From: Hirsutella rhossiliensis
Taxonomy: Eukaryota > Ascomycota > Sordariomycetes > Hypocreales > Ophiocordycipitaceae
Length of the DNA stretch: 64,000 nt
Assembly: GCF_020360975.1 (NCBI RefSeq)
Contig: NW_025408672.1
Location: forward strand, 1,178,001-1,242,000
Reading direction: 5' to 3'
Position 1 is the first letter of the stretch; every line of letters begins with the position of its first letter. The notes under the pieces were generated by a model. That model did no database searches. It saw nothing but the letters and a program-made list of their open reading frames with translations, and was not told the origin of the DNA. Of the stretch, positions 27,784 through 37,015 are shown piece by piece. The translations under genes were made by a program, and so were the position numbers.

Positions 27784-29844
27784 GGCTACTGCTGCTGTTG
27801 TGGGCGACGGGTGGCGCACGCAAACGATGCCCTCGATGGCGTTGGGAGAGTGTTGAAGAGAGCTCCCAATTGGAGGGGGGTGGCGGTGGCGGAGCGGCGG
27901 GTAGGTGTCGAGTTGTCGCGGGTTGTCGATGCCGGCGTCGGTGCTAGTGGCGGGCGACCGATTTGCCAACGGGATGGGAGTCGAGGAGTGAAAGGTGGCC
28001 TCGGTTGGCGAGGTGTGAGAGAGCCTCGGCGCGTGTGATTGGGAGAGGCTTCTCGAGATTTTGGCAAGGATCCGCAACGTGTTTGGATGGCCCGGCCTAC
28101 CCTATACGTGGGGCCGAGGTAGAACGGTCGGGGGTATGCAGCCTTTCAAAGGCCAGCTGATGGTTGCACTGTCCCTCAACACCACGAAAGAATCTCACGA
28201 TAGTTGCTTATTCATCCCCATTTGTCTGACTCAGACAGTCTACTCTACTCGCAGGTACGTGCCCTTGAATGTGGCGATTCTTGGGAGCATGTATTGACCC
28301 ACCTAACAATTGATTGTCCCTGTCACGTCCTATTTTACTGGATGTTCGGAGCAACATGTATGATGTAACTGGCGTCACATTGCATTGGATTTCAAGTTCC
28401 CCAGACCACCGCCACTATCAAGTTGCGAAACTGCGTGGGCCGGATTAGCACCTGTCTTGGGCGTCCTGTGGCTTCCCTTGGCAATCCCCAACTGCCAGCT
28501 GCCCTTGCGGATACAACAACTCAGGAGGCTAACGCATTCCAAGTCTGGCTGCCGAAAAAGGCTCAAGAAACGGCTTGCCATCTTGGCACCTACGTAATGT
28601 GTCCACTTGGAAACACTAGAAGAGAACGGACTCGCAAGTGTTCATTGGCGCAATGTAGAAGCCTCGCAGCATTGAGGCAGCATTGAGCCAATTGCTCCCA
28701 ACATGTATCTGAAATCATATGCCCAGAGACAGGGAAGCTATCATTGCTTACAGCGGACTAGTCCGTTGGTGCGTTATCTACGAGGACTATGTGTCTATAC
28801 TCGACTTCTTTGACCCGACCAGACGTTGGATGGTTCGCATTGAGTAGAAACTTGGAAGTTCCGACACCGCCTTGCCAAGACTTCATTCTCTTCGTATGCA
28901 ATATGACAACCAAGCGGGAGCCAAGCGGAGGCTTAAAGACAGTTGAAACGTTCGCCTATCGAACAAAGATCCTCCGTGTTCTTGATTTTGGTAAGCAGTG
29001 GGCCTTCACGGCCGCACATCTCACCAACTTGAGCATTTTCACGGTAAGTCGTCTTTGCCTTGGTGACTTTTGCTGATATATCCCATTTTCGAGGACAGGC
29101 CCGTCTATGCCGTAACTGCATCGCGGATCAGACTGGGCGGGATGGCCCGGATCTTGTGCGCGGATTATGACGGATACTCTAATGTGCGAGACACCCCCCG
29201 GTTCACAGGTTCTCAGTGCGTCAGAAAGCACCACGATGATGAGTTGCGCGGGATGGCCGCCGCCGCCTTCATGTTCCAATCGGCTCCCATTCCGAAGTGC
29301 CATGGCCTGACATCTGCGGGCTATGCCGGCAAGCATCCATGTCGTGCAGGGAGAATAAAGGCAACGATGGGACGCTGCCGGCGTTTATATACGAATGCAG
29401 GCTCTCCGACGTAGCATAGCATGCACAGGGGCGATGTCGTAGCTCTCAATAATTCGGCTCTTGCTTGGGTCAGAAGAGCTCAGCGGCCTAGCGCAACGAG
29501 TTGAGATGGCGGACGAGGTTGGAATGATCCGGAATGCGCGTTGATCGCGGGGGAGCGTTTGCTACTTTGGCAACGTTGCATGTAAGTCCCGCTGCACGTC
29601 GGGAGAATCGAGTATACAAACGGGTAGCAACCTAGCCCGTATGTGTATATTAGCATCGAGACATCGACATACGCGAGTCTGCATTCGGGGCTGTGCTCGT
29701 CACTCCTTATAACAAGCCGCCCGTCTGTCATGCAATTTGATTGTACCAAGCAAGCTATTCGACTGATTGTCACAAAGCTGCACGACCGAAACCTTTGACT
29801 TTGAAACCAAGAAACCTCACTTGAATCTCTTCATCGCAGTCACC
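27784..29844. other. long intergenic stretch with scattered splice-like signals
   Basis: It holds the leader and promoter of MPDU1 (minus) and the promoter of the toxin gene (plus). No convincing complete gene. Intron-like signals occur at 29,044-29,098 (GTAAGT...GACAG, 55 nt). Joining across it would extend an open frame that starts near 28,789 with ...F-T-A-R-L-C-R-N-C before a stop, so a decayed or very small gene is possible. Another pair is GTAAGT at 29,582 and CCTAG ending 29,635, followed by CCC and GTATGT. A TTATAACAA word at about 29,708 could serve the toxin gene. Confidence 0.35.
28233..28248 (-). repeat. 16-bp inverted repeat, right arm
   Basis: AGACAGTCTACTCTAC, the exact reverse complement of 25,119-25,134. 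Confidence 0.5.
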
Positions 29845-30789
29845 ATGGTGCCTCGGTCTTCATTGGTCGTCCTGGCCTTTACTGGCCTCCTCCAGCTCTC
29901 GGGCATCACCCACGCCGCACCAGCTCCTCTTGAACCACTCCAGGGATCAACCTCCCGGATCTCAGACTACCCCCGCTTCCTGCCCGTAGCGGATACCAAC
30001 GGGGGAGAGAAGCGCCCATCGCTTGAGAATCTGCAGGTCCGCCAGGCGGGGCACCCCCGCAAGCCCAAGCCTGTAAAGGTTCTCTACCGAGGCGATCAGA
30101 GATCTCCGGGGCAACTAATTAAGCTGGGAGGAATTCCGCCCAGGTCCAAGGGACCAACAACGAACGAAACATACAGCTTGCAAGTGCACCATCTGGGACA
30201 GAGAAAGGTCAGCACCGCATACGTGTCGACAACATGGTCTTTTGGCGTCGCGGTTGGATTCGCCACTCAAAAGGGGGGACCAAACGACCGCGCCCCCGGC
30301 TGGATCTATGAGATTCACCCCTCGCCCAACATGATTGATATGGATGATTCCCTGTTCCAGACTTCCTACGCCAGCGAAAAGGAGTTCTCCGCCATGGGAG
30401 GGATCCGCTGGGACCAGATCACGGGCTACATGTATTGCCCGTTGAACCTGACTGGGCATGATTTCACTAGGAAAGACCTCTATAGCTACCAATACTTTGC
30501 ATCCTTTGTCAAAAGGTTTCCTGACCAACAATTCACCAAGAACGAGCAGTACAACAGCGCGTACGACAAATACGAGCCTAGCCCTGGGATGCCACAGCTC
30601 GGGGGCGGGAGCGTGGCCAAGGAATACAATCAGATGACAACGGAGGAGTGGGCGATGGACTTTATGAACCACACTGGCGCTCCTGTTGGCTGGAAGGGTG
30701 CCTTCCCCCTGAATTTTACTGCAATTCCCGACTTTGGCGATAACAAGGTGACGCCAGTTGTTGCTGTTCCCCCGAGGAAGATGCTTTAA
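29845..30789 (+). CDS. secreted ADP-ribosyltransferase, heat-labile enterotoxin A-chain family
   Basis: A single exon of 314 residues; ATG in CACCATGG context. An N-terminal hydrophobic stretch ending T-H-A (about residue 24) is a clear signal peptide. After a short pro-like region the catalytic landmarks of cholera/LT-type arginine ADP-ribosyltransferases appear in order: L-Y-R82-G-D-Q-R (NAD-binding Arg), Y-V-S128-T-T (STS-type motif), I-Y-E-I-H-P-x-P-N-M-I-D, and E178-K-E180-F-S-A-M-G-G-I (the E-x-E pair). All key residues are present, so it is probably active. These enzymes transfer ADP-ribose from NAD+ to Arg of a host protein; the fungal members are expanded in insect- and plant-associated Hypocreales and their targets are mostly unknown. 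There is no neighbouring B-subunit gene. The first in-frame ATG is taken as start; upstream open frame has only a TTG. No RIP-type stop, although RIPed DNA lies some 6 kb away on either side. Confidence 0.9.
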   Translation: MVPRSSLVVLAFTGLLQLSGITHAAPAPLEPLQGSTSRISDYPRFLPVADTNGGEKRPSLENLQVRQAGHPRKPKPVKVLYRGDQRSPGQLIKLGGIPPRSKGPTTNETYSLQVHHLGQRKVSTAYVSTTWSFGVAVGFATQKGGPNDRAPGWIYEIHPSPNMIDMDDSLFQTSYASEKEFSAMGGIRWDQITGYMYCPLNLTGHDFTRKDLYSYQYFASFVKRFPDQQFTKNEQYNSAYDKYEPSPGMPQLGGGSVAKEYNQMTTEEWAMDFMNHTGAPVGWKGAFPLNFTAIPDFGDNKVTPVVAVPPRKML

Positions 30790-33400: not shown

Positions 33401-35852
33401 GTTCCTCTTGGCTAGGTTGCACCTAGACAACCTCAGCAAGTGTAGCATTTACGCTGATGTCAAAGGCGCCCTTTCCCGTCTCCCCACCGACTTGGAGTTC
33501 GTCTTCAAGGCCTCCATTTCTCAAATCACCGAAAGGCAAACCGCATTTGATAGAGAACTAGCCAAGCACACCCTCACATGAGTCGTCCATGCAAAGGTCA
33601 ACTTCACCATCGACCAGGTCCAAGACAGTTTCGCCATACAACATAGCAAGTGGAATAGCTCATGTTACTACGACTACCGCCCCCTGAGAGACTTGGTGGT
33701 GTCGGTATGCGCCGGTTTGCTCGTCATGGATCCGGAAAACGGTATTCTTCGCTGGTCCACCAGTCCGTACGTGACTATCTTCGGAAAAACAGCGTAACAT
33801 ATAAGCAGGCTGATTCAATCATGGCTGCAACATGCCTTGAGTGTCTGCTGGTCGACAAGGCGAGTCCCATGCTTCCGTATGCCGCAAGGTACTGGAGCTT
33901 GCATGCCGGCGACTGCTCTCCAGGCACCGACTCGGAGGATGATATTTTGGCCCGAGCCTTCTTGCAGGATAGGGGGAAGCTCAGCAGAGCGTTCAAGGCC
34001 ATACCCGAGGCCCGGGACTACGACACGGATACCATGACCGGCTTACACGCCACTGTTTTTCTGAATATCTCGCAATGGGCCAGTGCCCTGATTAAAACGC
34101 CAAGTGTCGACATCAACGCGAAATGCTCCGACGGCCAGACGGCTCTGCACTGGGCCGTCAGGCTCGGCCGGCGACGTCTAGTGTCCCATCTTCAGGAGCA
34201 TTCGGCAAACCCCAATATACGCGAGAAAACAGGCGACACGCCACTCCATCTGGCTTTGATAAGGCCGCCGACGGACAGCACTAGAATCGTGAAGGCCCGG
34301 GTCAACCGCGGTGTCAGGATTGACATGCTCGGCGCCAGAGGGGTGATGGCTCTATCGTGGGCAATCCGCTACGGTCCCACGGCCCTTGCCGAGATCCTCG
34401 TCAAGGGCCAGGTTGATCTGAATGCTTAAATCACCAAGGGATGGACCTCCCTAAGAGAGCTGTTCTCCTACGGCCCCCACATAAACCATTCATCGGATGC
34501 CTCGGCCGACCAATTGGCAACGCTGAACGAGGCCGTCGGCGACAACGTCAAGTACCTCGTCGATGTCGTGCTCGATCGCGGTGTAGACCTTAATCGTCCT
34601 ACGAGCGATGGCTGGCTGCCGCTGATCCACGCAGCCAACACAGGGAGTGTCCGGATGCTAAGATGTCTGCTGGAACGGGAGCCGTGCCCGGCTGACGTCG
34701 GGCTTCGGGATCTAAACGATGTAAAGTCGCCGCTTCGAGGGGCCGTGTTCTATAAGAAATCGGCGGCGGTACGGCTGCTGATCGAGCATGGAGCAGACGT
34801 CAACGAGAGCAACGATGACGGATGGACGCCGCTCATCCAGGCCGTCAAGTACCAAGACGAGGAGCTAGTTTGGTTACTCCTAATAGACGGCGCCAGGCCA
34901 GATACGGTCGACAACAACGGCTGGCCAGCGCTGCTCCATGCCGTCAAGAGCCGACAGAGGGCCATCGTCTGGCTCTTGCTAGTCACGGGAAAGGCGGATG
35001 CCCATCTGCATAGCAGCAAGGTGCTGAAGCTGTCTATGGGGAACAAGGACCTCGCCACGGCCTGGCTGTTATGCCAGCACGGGGTCGATGTCGACGTCGC
35101 CGACGAAGAGGGCAGAATGCCGCTACACCGAGCCTCCCAGCGCGGCTCCGCGAGAGACGTCGAGTTTCTCCTGACGCAGGGCGCACAGGGCGCCCGGCCA
35201 GATAGCACAGGGTTCATGCCGCTACACCACGCCGTGCTGCGTTGGGAGCCGGAAACGGACAAGCTGCTGGCGCGGCGGGCATCGCGGCTTGGGCACCTCG
35301 ACCGGCAAGATGCCCATGGCCACACGGCCCTTTCGCTGGCAACCCTGCAGCAGAGCGAGCCTATGATGCAGACGCTTTTGCGGCATAAGGCTTCGTGCGA
35401 TAGGCTGAACCGCCGAGGCATGACGGCGCTGCACTACGCCGCCAGGCACGGCTTCAACCAGGGGCTCCGGCTACTGCTACGCAACGCGGCGGACAGCGAC
35501 CGGGTCGATGAGAAGGGCTATTCGGCGATGCACCACGCCGTCAGCAGTGACAAGGCCAACATGCAGACGGTTCACCTCCTGGCCACGAGCGGCGCCAACC
35601 TTGAAGGCCAGAACAAAGAGGACCTGACTCCGCCTATGCTCGCCGCCTACCTGTGGAAGGCGTCGTTTGTGCGCCAGCTGCTGGCTCACCACGCCGACGA
35701 CAATATGCGGAATTCCAGAGGGCAGACAGCTTATGAGCTGGCCGAGGATTCGGTCGTCCGGGACGAGTTTTATACAAGACGACATAAGTATTAGTTTACT
35801 ATATAGAGAAATCTTCTGAAAGGTTCTACTTACATTAAAGTAACCTTTATAA

Positions 35853-36528
35853 ATGGAAAATAAAGTATATTTTAAACCTTCATGACTTTATTTCCTACTA
35901 ATATCTTGGCCTCTGCTCACCATCCCTTCCCTTCTATAGCGAGCAAGTAATGCTTACTACTTAACATGTTAATAGTATGGCAGTAACACCATTCTAGGGC
36001 GTAAGTCCTCCCTAATCGTACACGACATAACCATCTATTACAGTACTAATGAATGTACTCCTGTCAGCCTGTAAGTACACGTGGATTCCATCCGTTATGT
36101 TTGATATCGTTGCTTACACAAATCTCAAAGGGTGTAAGTCCTTCCACATTGGTATTGCGTGGCTGGATACAGAAATTAACATCTTCTACTCATTTTGTTC
36201 TATAATAGGCTGTAAGCTATGCTTTTTATCGCAGAAATTTCGATCAAGTATATTAACGAATATTATGTCTGCTCTAGCCTGTGAGCCGGGTGCTACTTTG
36301 TACGGTTGCTAATCCACTACTATATTCTATCCGTGAGTAGAGTTATCAATACGTTACTCCTAGTATAATTACTAGGATACCAATAATTAACTCTAGCCCG
36401 TAAGCAACCTTATGTGTAACTGAGATAATCGCTAGAAACGATTCTAATAGTCCAGCTACGCCCCAGTCTGTACGTTCGCAAAATATTGTACTGCACATGC
36501 CTCCGAGGCAGTTACATCGCACCGCTAA
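35853..36528 (+). other. tandem array of mini-introns separated by 3-nt 'microexons' (candidate microexon gene)
   Basis: Donors occur at 35,943 (GCAAGT), 36,001, 36,071, 36,134 (GTAAGT), 36,212 (GTAAGC), 36,281 (GTGAGC), 36,333 (GTGAGT) and 36,400 (GTAAGC). Acceptors end at 35,939, 35,997, 36,067, 36,130, 36,208, 36,277, 36,396 and 36,450. At seven junctions exactly 3 nt lie between acceptor and next donor: CGA, GGC, CCT, GGT, GCT, CCT, CCC. Before the donor at 36,333 the acceptor is lost (TTCTA-TCC), perhaps a deleted G. Intron lengths are about 50-75 nt, each with a TTAAC/CTAAT/CTTAC/GTAAC branch-like word. Upstream, ATG GAA AAT AAA (35,853-35,864) runs into a GTATAT donor, giving a possible 12-nt first exon. 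Downstream of 36,450 the frame continues TCC AGC TAC GCC to a TAA at 36,526-36,528. Full splicing would give a peptide of under 40 residues, Gly/Pro/Ser-rich in the middle. I know no such gene family. Confidence 0.6.
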
Positions 36529-37015
36529 TCTCATCTCCCTCTCCTGGATTAGCAATTCGGGGAACCCTCGATCTTACGGATCGCTACAGCCGAACCAGAC
36601 GAGAACCCTGACCTCCTACGTCGGCCACATCTGGCGCCTGGCGGTACCAGACTCTGAACAGCGCGTATCGTGCGCCGTGAGAAACGAACTCTCCACCGCC
36701 ATTATTGAAGAGTCTCCTCTTGGCCTCACCCTCAGCTAGGAAATGATCTCACCGGCCCAAAGCTCAGTTTCTGCTATGGACGAAGAGGCATCGAGCACCT
36801 GGCCTAGGCCGTTCGTGCGCGACTTCAATGTCGGGGCTCGGAACTTGGATAATACTGAGAAGCAAGTTTCCTTCCAAGGCGTTGTAGATGACGAGTTGGA
36901 AGGCATCTACGCGTCGCCTGATGGGCGTCACTCTGGCTTCATTGTAGGATAGAAGAAGGCAAGGGTGTTCCGGGAGCCTAGGTCGATCCTAGCGGCACGA
37001 GATGGTGGCGATGTT
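36497..37015 (+). pseudogene. truncated relic of a VHL-domain / dipeptidyl-peptidase-IV-type (S9) protein
   Basis: One plus-strand frame reads L-S-W-I-S-N-S-G-N-P-R-S-Y-G-S-L-Q-P-N-Q-T, then S-Y-V-G-H-I-W-R-L. This is the pattern of the VHL beta domain (N-R-T...W-x-x-x-G...Y-x-x-L-x-P-G...Y-x-G-H-x-W). It continues after a TAG (36,737) as R-P-F-V-R-D-F-N-V-G-A-R-N-L-D and G-I-Y-A-S-P-D-G-R-H, like the first blades of the DPP IV N-terminal propeller. A VHL beta domain preceding an S9 peptidase is a known architecture in fungi and bacteria. A second TAG is at 36,950; both may be CAG-to-TAG changes. Similarity ends at about 37,015 where RIPed LINE DNA begins, so the catalytic part is lost. The true 5' limit is uncertain and may be near 36,510. 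Confidence 0.6.

Follow-up and report, generated by a model that had tools for sequence, protein, structure and literature searches.

We report a candidate gene type in which each exon of the mature product holds a single codon. It was recognised in a 64,000-nucleotide stretch of the genome of the fungus Hirsutella rhossiliensis (contig NW_025408672.1, positions 1,178,001 to 1,242,000; hereafter the window), where a region a little over 0.6 kb long, ending at 36,515, is very probably a truncated, decaying copy of such a gene. The window sits on the contig that we call C6, in a genome of 81.8 Mb in 40 contigs with alternating normal and AT-rich blocks. Splicing and peptide products in all arrays described here are deduced from DNA alone. 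In intact members of the class, the first exon would encode a signal-type peptide and a short pro-region, each residue of the mature peptide would have its own 3-nt exon in phase 0, between introns that mostly measure 50-95 nt, and a stop codon would open the last exon. The spliceosome would take out every intron, probably by intron definition and working from 5' to 3', so that a codon is first attached to the lengthening exon upstream and its own donor is used afterwards. Since a downstream donor would be used after the upstream intron has left, a 3-nt exon would never have to be recognised by itself. The products are predicted to be secreted peptides rich in Cys or Pro.

The chain had been noticed in a sequence-only reading of the window, which proposed an undescribed microexon gene with one-codon exons and named eight near-consensus donors. 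All eight are present, at 35943 (GCAAGT), 36001, 36071 and 36134 (GTAAGT at each), 36212 (GTAAGC), 36281 (GTGAGC), 36333 (GTGAGT) and 36400 (GTAAGC), and an AG lies exactly 3 nt before seven of these donors between 35,943 and 36,400, the exception being 36333. A ninth junction, AG-TCT-GTACGT, was found at 36,470. The steps from donor to donor measure 52-78 nt. Six of the seven GTRAG words in 35,900-36,530 have an AG at distance 3, and none has one at any other distance from 0 to 14. The parts of the chain are listed below, with the corresponding codon of a paralogous array on another contig, C1, in brackets.

35839..35939 (+): degenerate 5' array end, in which ten bases, AGTAACCTTT, match the previous C1 intron on its donor side
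35940..35942 (+): one-codon exon CGA (C1: CAA), donor GCAAGT
35998..36000 (+): one-codon exon GGC (C1: GGA)
36068..36070 (+): one-codon exon CCT (C1: CCT)
36131..36133 (+): one-codon exon GGT (C1: AGT), AAG acceptor in both window and C1
36209..36211 (+): one-codon exon GCT (C1: GCC)
36278..36280 (+): one-codon exon CCT (C1: CCC)
36330..36332 (+): remains of a one-codon exon, TCC (C1: CCT), donor GTGAGT, lacking an AG acceptor; C1 has AG-CCT-GTGAGT
36397..36399 (+): one-codon exon CCC (C1: CCT)
36467..36469 (+): one-codon exon TCT (C1: TCT), donor GTACGT
36470..36515 (+): start of the intron after TCT, to the end of the blastn homology with the C1 array

We scanned about 280 kb (the window and the flanks of the window and C1 loci) on both strands for chains with exons of 0-30 nt that advance by 40-140 nt. 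Chains of more than three were confined to the window (8) and its C1 paralogue (13), each at exon size 3, and a single chain of three occurred at exon size 15. No chain of three or more was found at exon sizes 0, 1 or 2 in these 280 kb, which sets the arrangement apart from stwintrons and zero-length exons. With exons of 3 nt throughout the chain, skipping any one would remove a single residue without a frameshift, as had been pointed out from the sequence. The same reading had argued that a tandem repeat does not explain the units, and TRF reported no array in 35,800-36,600.

The C1 array contains 13 one-codon exons with near-consensus splice sites, and its introns, 50-74 nt long, carry CTAAY/CTRAY or related branch-like words. 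With blastn, window positions 35924-36515 align to it at 59% identity over 618 columns, and the codons of the two copies are in register across nine exon positions. Identical bases number 19 of 27 in exons, 45 of 54 in donors, 22 of 27 in acceptors and 276 of 389 in aligned introns. The earlier claim that splice signals are kept and intron bodies are not needs correcting: the bodies differ from one another within an array, but between window and C1 they are 71% identical, close to the level of the exons. A genome search with 35,800-36,600 returned only the self-match; that search was insensitive, missing the 59%-identical C1 copy in both directions.

Comparison with C1 also indicates how the window copy was damaged. 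At the 5' end the local alignment begins only at 35924, and the CCT exon of C1 with its donor is unrecognisable; what follows the ten-base match in 35839..35939 is an AT-rich stretch with branch-like words, a pyrimidine tract and a TATAG acceptor. At the 3' end the array stops within the intron after TCT, and a fragment of a peptidase gene starts 4 bases on:

36520..36931 (+): fragment of a VHL-domain / S9 dipeptidyl-peptidase gene, 74.5% DNA identity to the C1 gene over 412 bp

The VHL match spans 36518-36658 (PF01847, 37.1 bits; cut-off 21). The fragment has 66% protein identity to the C1 gene and a stop at 36737-36739 within the homologous region. The C1 peptidase has an unbroken 850-codon frame (C1:10733089-10735638, minus strand) with S9 and VHL beta domains, and the C1 array is found upstream of its VHL region, on the same strand and about 2.8 kb away. 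The window array thus appears to have been joined to the peptidase fragment by loss of some 2.8 kb. With both ends cut off relative to C1, one acceptor absent and the 5' end unrecognisable, the window copy is to all appearances a relic. This fits the decayed gene that the sequence-only reading had listed among its alternatives: a truncated relic, not a working gene. A fusion of array and VHL domain was considered as the principal interpretation and dropped, because the C1 locus has the array and the VHL gene 2.8 kb apart.

The window and C1 are not the only such loci. The whole genome was scanned with short splice-junction patterns, with reversed patterns as controls. The Pro-exon pattern YAGCCYGTRAGY gave 100 matches against 74 for its control, the Cys-exon pattern YTAGTGYGTRAGT 55 against 6, and YTAGVVYGTAAGT 171 against 19 (for this last pattern, positions are available for the first matches). 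These scans led to seven further array loci, making nine in all, most of which were read only in part; some have at least 33 one-codon exons. The array sequences, designated by L numbers, are distributed as follows.

C5: L041
C3: L042
C13: L043 and L049
C18: L047 and L050
C8: L046 and L048
C6: L044 and L045, 2.7 Mb away from the window
Array spans in kb: C5:2401.3-2404.0, C18:1469.6-1472.7, C8:677.1-680.0 and C1:10737.7-10738.7

Further clusters of matches lie on C10 (with the same spacing as on C13), on C8 near 1.04 and 1.05 Mb and on C3 near 2.985 Mb. The junction matches of C10:2419950-2423242 have the same spacing as those of C13:2393601-2397081, which suggests a recent duplication of one array locus; the C13 set lies about 60 kb from the contig end.

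A chain parser applied to 11 sequences from the nine loci returned 244 one-codon exons; the first in L046 was reassigned to the end of the first exon, leaving 243. Twenty shuffles of each array gave chains of at most two, as did seven other exon sizes, with one exception: size 9 gave a chain of 13 in L046, which is highly repetitive. In L041, 33 one-codon exons (28 from the parser and five added by eye) stand between a first exon of 26 codons and a last exon that begins with a stop. An intron of about 172 nt precedes the last four of these exons and holds an insert, perhaps a small mobile element, 40 nt of which match (85%) a site that precedes the C1 array by about 1.2 kb.

Several lines of evidence indicate that these triplets act as codons. 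Not one of the 243 is a stop, where per-position shuffling expects 5.7; zero stops occurred in 0.125% of 20,000 shuffle trials (P about 0.001). When the Pro and Cys codons selected by the search are set aside, 174 remain, and the probability of no stop under equal codon use is about 1e-4. Starts were assessed for four arrays: in L041, L042, L047 and L049 an ATG opens a hydrophobic, signal-type first exon that runs in phase 0 to the donor, signal character and phase both being judged by eye. The L049 first exon ends in KR, which we take to be a Kex2-type site, and its donor, GTATCT, is weak. Elsewhere L046 has a longer first open reading frame (ORF), L048 has no clear first exon, and none is visible for the window and C1. 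At the other end, an acceptor is followed immediately by a stop in five of the six ends read: TGA in L041, TAA in L043, L044 and L046, and TAG in C1. The terminal acceptors were chosen by eye; the end exon of L047 is incomplete, and the ends of L045, L048 and L049 fall outside the six.

The predicted spliced peptides are rich in Cys or Pro, and two of them have an ordered Cys pattern. With the five exons added by eye, L041 reads C-x6-C-x6-CC-x4-C-x7-C, and L047 reads C-x6-C-x5-CC-x4-C; both follow the inhibitor cystine knot order C-xn-C-xn-CC-xn-C-xn-C. This order was matched by 36 (L041) and 59 (L047) of 200,000 residue permutations, with the pattern set post hoc. Database matches to known cystine-knot peptides are weak. 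Both products match Pfam Toxin_12, but below its curated cut-off (E=0.0024 and 0.01; 18.9 and 16.9 bits against 21). PDB 2i1t was matched at E=0.0059, L047 attaining only E 0.45. The other four peptides compared with Pfam gave one chance-level match or none. We read the triplets as codons because they are stop-free, because first exons enter the chain in phase 0, because ends open with a stop, and because the Cys residues follow the cystine-knot order.

In the most uniform arrays, variation is concentrated in the exons. Across the 18 units of L043, the 21 bases before the acceptor have a mean heterozygosity of 0.01, and the three exon bases 0.65, 0.78 and 0.46. L044, L045, L046 and L042 tend the same way, with little change upstream of the exon and more in the first two bases of the codon. 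The introns of an array have a mean identity of between 0.54 (C1) and 0.93 (L046), and within L043, L044, L045 and L046 it is 84-93%, near-identity of the kind found among introners. The introns of window and C1 have a variability of 0.73-0.74, as far apart as random sequence. An intron-family profile, with splice sites trimmed, was built from other arrays, whose introns look alike by eye, with L047 and L041 held out. It matched 28 of 32 L047 introns and 24 of 27 L041 introns, against about 1.5% of shuffles.

Several arrays also share a 3' element. A near-identical stretch follows the stop in L041, L043, L044 and L046, and the genome contains 27 copies of it. For ten copies a Pro/Cys junction match lies within 5 kb upstream on the same strand, and for none downstream. 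Among the ten, four are arrays already read, one is the C10 locus with 11 matches, and five have a single match each. Copies with no upstream Pro/Cys junction match are found, for example, at C13:1673231, C1:1579733 and C5:6335366; such copies may belong to additional arrays, either built of other codons or decayed. A structured 3' RNA element was considered and rejected, its fold being no better than that of shuffles (z 0.06), and at the gathering threshold Rfam gave no family in three arrays.

A number of observations weigh against reading these arrays as one-codon-exon genes, or against reading the window as one of them. The profile scores above 0 for none of the seven window introns and none of the 12 C1 introns. 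Window and C1 thus appear to share an architecture with the other arrays and not, detectably, their introns; because no such similarity can be seen, we do not claim common descent. C1 has no clear first exon: an N-terminal segment resembling a prolyl hydroxylase, at most a possible first exon, runs into the array, with an open frame that closes about 12 nt short of the first array exon. The ends are less uniform than the count of immediate stops implies. In L046 and C1 another AG acceptor lies close by; in C1, where the last one-codon exon AAA is followed by an AAG acceptor and TAG at once, use of the next AG, 3 bases further, would add a tail of six codons ahead of a stop. The last readable exon of L042 has six codons before its stop. 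The Cys order of L041 depends on five exons outside the parsed chain, one behind a weak donor and four after the 172-nt intron. Third codon positions vary little in L042 (0.11) and L044 (0.12), and in the repetitive L046 the parser also returns 13 sites at exon size 9. Searching with Pro and Cys junction patterns biases the composition of the arrays recovered, although even those that the Pro pattern alone brought up have Cys at 25 of 125 codons. Seventeen of the 27 places with the 3' element have no upstream junction match, counting Pro and Cys patterns only. Finally, no homologous protein was found for two spliced peptides, and a search of the fungus's own genome, run without a positive control, found no contiguous copy of one spliced peptide.

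Other explanations of the window chain were weighed against these data. The window copy might be a working, rebuilt gene, with the array spliced in frame onto the captured VHL fragment to make a small chimeric protein: the frame is open from the TCT codon through the VHL domain to the stop at 36,737-36,739, and an ATG at 35,853 precedes a possible donor at 35,865. We consider this very unlikely, since the chain lacks one acceptor and has a GC donor and a GTACGT donor, the 5' end is unlike any first exon read, the copy is shorter than C1 at either end, and the peptidase frame meets its stop inside the homologous region. To the idea of one long intron removed by recursive splicing, in which the 3-nt segments would be temporary sites absent from the mRNA, we give slightly less credence still. 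The AG-N3-GT word does resemble a recursive splice site with a tiny exon, and the steps between sites are short. However, the segments behave as codons, with 243 free of stops, a third-position bias, the cystine-knot order and a phase-0 first exon; most ends read have a stop-first last exon, and removal of the whole chain would leave a signal-type peptide followed by an immediate stop. The sequence-only reading had offered recursive splicing and a leader of the upstream gene among its alternatives; both are disfavoured because arrays elsewhere in the genome stand alone and spell secreted-type peptides. Least credible of all is an unspliced tandem repeat or degenerate satellite that merely mimics splice sites. 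Near-perfect tandem repeats do occur in several arrays (L043, L046), but in the window, C1, L041 and L047 the units have diverged without losing their splice sites or the 3-nt distance between acceptor and donor, the variable triplet is never a stop and yields a Cys-knot order, and signal-type first exons precede four arrays. The proposal of an undescribed gene with one-codon exons, by comparison, has been strengthened by the 13-exon C1 array and seven more loci, with stop-free codons, phase-0 first exons in the four arrays whose start was read and possible stop-first ends in five of six.

How the arrays of one-codon-exon genes grew is a separate matter. Growth by duplication of codon-plus-intron units, rather than by intron insertion or gene conversion, is possible, though we think it the less likely course. 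Unit length is regular (73 nt in L046, for instance), and in L046 an intron variant follows five of seven Cys codons and none of 24 other scorable units, a post hoc comparison, as if each Cys codon had been duplicated along with the intron that follows it. Against this, introns beside identical codons are generally no more alike (nine arrays, 18 tests; the best, 11 of 2000 permutations, in L048), and codon-plus-intron cassettes find no support as a general rule in this comparison. The identity of neighbouring introns lies within 0.015 of the array mean, in either direction and with no significance figure attached, and such weak neighbour similarity speaks against simple stepwise duplication. 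Possible sources of the near-identical introns are an introner-like family placed between codons, duplication of units, and gene conversion that selection on codons confines to introns.

If the splicing is confirmed, exon and codon would be one and the same throughout a mature peptide, as small as an in-frame exon can be, and the arrays would test how the spliceosome copes with dozens of consecutive 3-nt exons. Ordinary annotation can be expected to miss such a class of genes, and the window copy lies in apparently intergenic DNA. Introns that are nearly constant and exons that differ, as in the most uniform arrays, would reverse the usual pattern of genes. The arrays would also offer a concrete system for studying intron multiplication together with residue-by-residue diversification of peptides. 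Homogeneous introns might let residues be added, lost or skipped singly. We suggest, as a speculation with the odds against it, that the arrays form a peptide repertoire in which each mature residue has its own exon, residues are gained, lost or skipped one at a time, and splicing yields variants from one gene.

The surroundings of the C1 array are also of interest. For a protein encoded at this locus, the best named matches come from Drechmeria coniospora (71% identity), a member of the Ophiocordycipitaceae, and Hirsutella minnesotensis (64%), with one further protein at 96%. Pro accounts for six of the array's 13 codons, so its predicted product is about half Pro, and the array adjoins genes of the 2OG-Fe(II)-oxygenase, UstYa-like and prolyl-peptidase types. 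It is flanked on one side by the N-terminal segment mentioned above, which we take from family resemblance to be prolyl-4-hydroxylase-like, and on the other by an opposite-strand 2OG-Fe(II) oxygenase ORF (PF13640). The segment has no Pfam match of its own and gives weak matches to two adjacent frames. The interval C1:10736499-10744240 and its vicinity include two 2OG-Fe(II) oxygenase ORFs, this segment, which is the broken N-terminal part of a related gene, and the VHL/S9 peptidase. A UstYa-like ORF is also present; it is below the Pfam cut-off and has six more matches in the genome. A biosynthetic neighbourhood around the array is possible, and it is an attractive guess that the cluster hydroxylates and trims a Pro-rich peptide. 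A reverse transcriptase ORF (RVT_1) lies near the VHL/S9 gene (L006 690-2051 (+), C1:10730689-10732050). In the window, the relic is preceded by the following feature.

34430..35794 (+): ankyrin region at the C-terminus of the gene upstream (Pfam: Ank_2 and relatives), stop 35792-35794 just 5' of the relic

This gene had been labelled an NLR from the sequence, and it is its ankyrin part that was matched here. Further upstream, an ORF at window 29767-30789 (+) matches the heat-labile enterotoxin A family (PF01375, 57 bits), of ADP-ribosyltransferase type; a genome paper on ant-infecting Ophiocordyceps mentions enterotoxins in its title (PMC5624889).

Several known systems share features with these arrays, and in the open-access literature searched we found no gene with a chain of one-codon exons. 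Schistosome micro-exon genes (MEGs) encode a signal peptide followed by many in-frame microexons, the skipping of which keeps the frame; their exons are about 6-36 nt long and their introns conventional, whereas the exons of the fungal arrays are 3 nt and the introns mostly 50-95 nt. As in MEGs and the bicycle genes of aphids, the predicted coding sequence lies mostly in many very short in-frame exons (clearest in L041; 243 such exons were parsed across all arrays) and a signal-type peptide occupies the first exon (by eye, in L041, L042, L047 and L049). Sequence homology to either group was not found, searches with two peptides giving no homologue and Pfam matches being sub-threshold only. Dikaritin-type peptide clusters contain UstYa-like proteins, and the C1 array is likewise accompanied by a UstYa-like ORF, albeit below the cut-off, as well as by 2OG-Fe(II) oxygenase ORFs and a prolyl peptidase. 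The C1 product, unlike dikaritin precursors, shows no repeated core peptides, and we know of no one-codon exons in that class. The internal exons of bicycle genes are longer than those described here and non-uniform.

Bicycle and megacycle genes of aphids are described as fast-evolving putative effectors with many tiny internal exons, nearly all of one phase, and one gene with more than 100 microexons (PMC9168663). Many very small exons in one phase are common to both systems. The insect exons are in phase 2, whereas those of the fungus are exactly one codon in phase 0, and several fungal arrays have near-identical introns. Single microexons of comparable size are on record. Examples from fungi and plants are a transcript-supported 1-nt exon in Fusarium CYP621A (PMC12940212), two 3-nt exons in lipS of Dactylellina (PMC5639578), and a 1-nt exon in Arabidopsis APC11 and the Xlr2 microexon of Trichoderma (PMC11121469, PMC4674806). 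These are one or two microexons in otherwise ordinary genes, whereas here a whole peptide would be laid out in consecutive one-codon exons. Fungal introners are families of near-identical introns multiplied within one genome (PMC9860276, PMC4457414); in the present arrays, near-identical introns separate consecutive codons of one peptide. The novelty would thus lie in the confinement of a whole mature peptide to one-codon exons, and if all microexon-rich genes are counted as one kind, the arrays of H. rhossiliensis would represent its extreme form.
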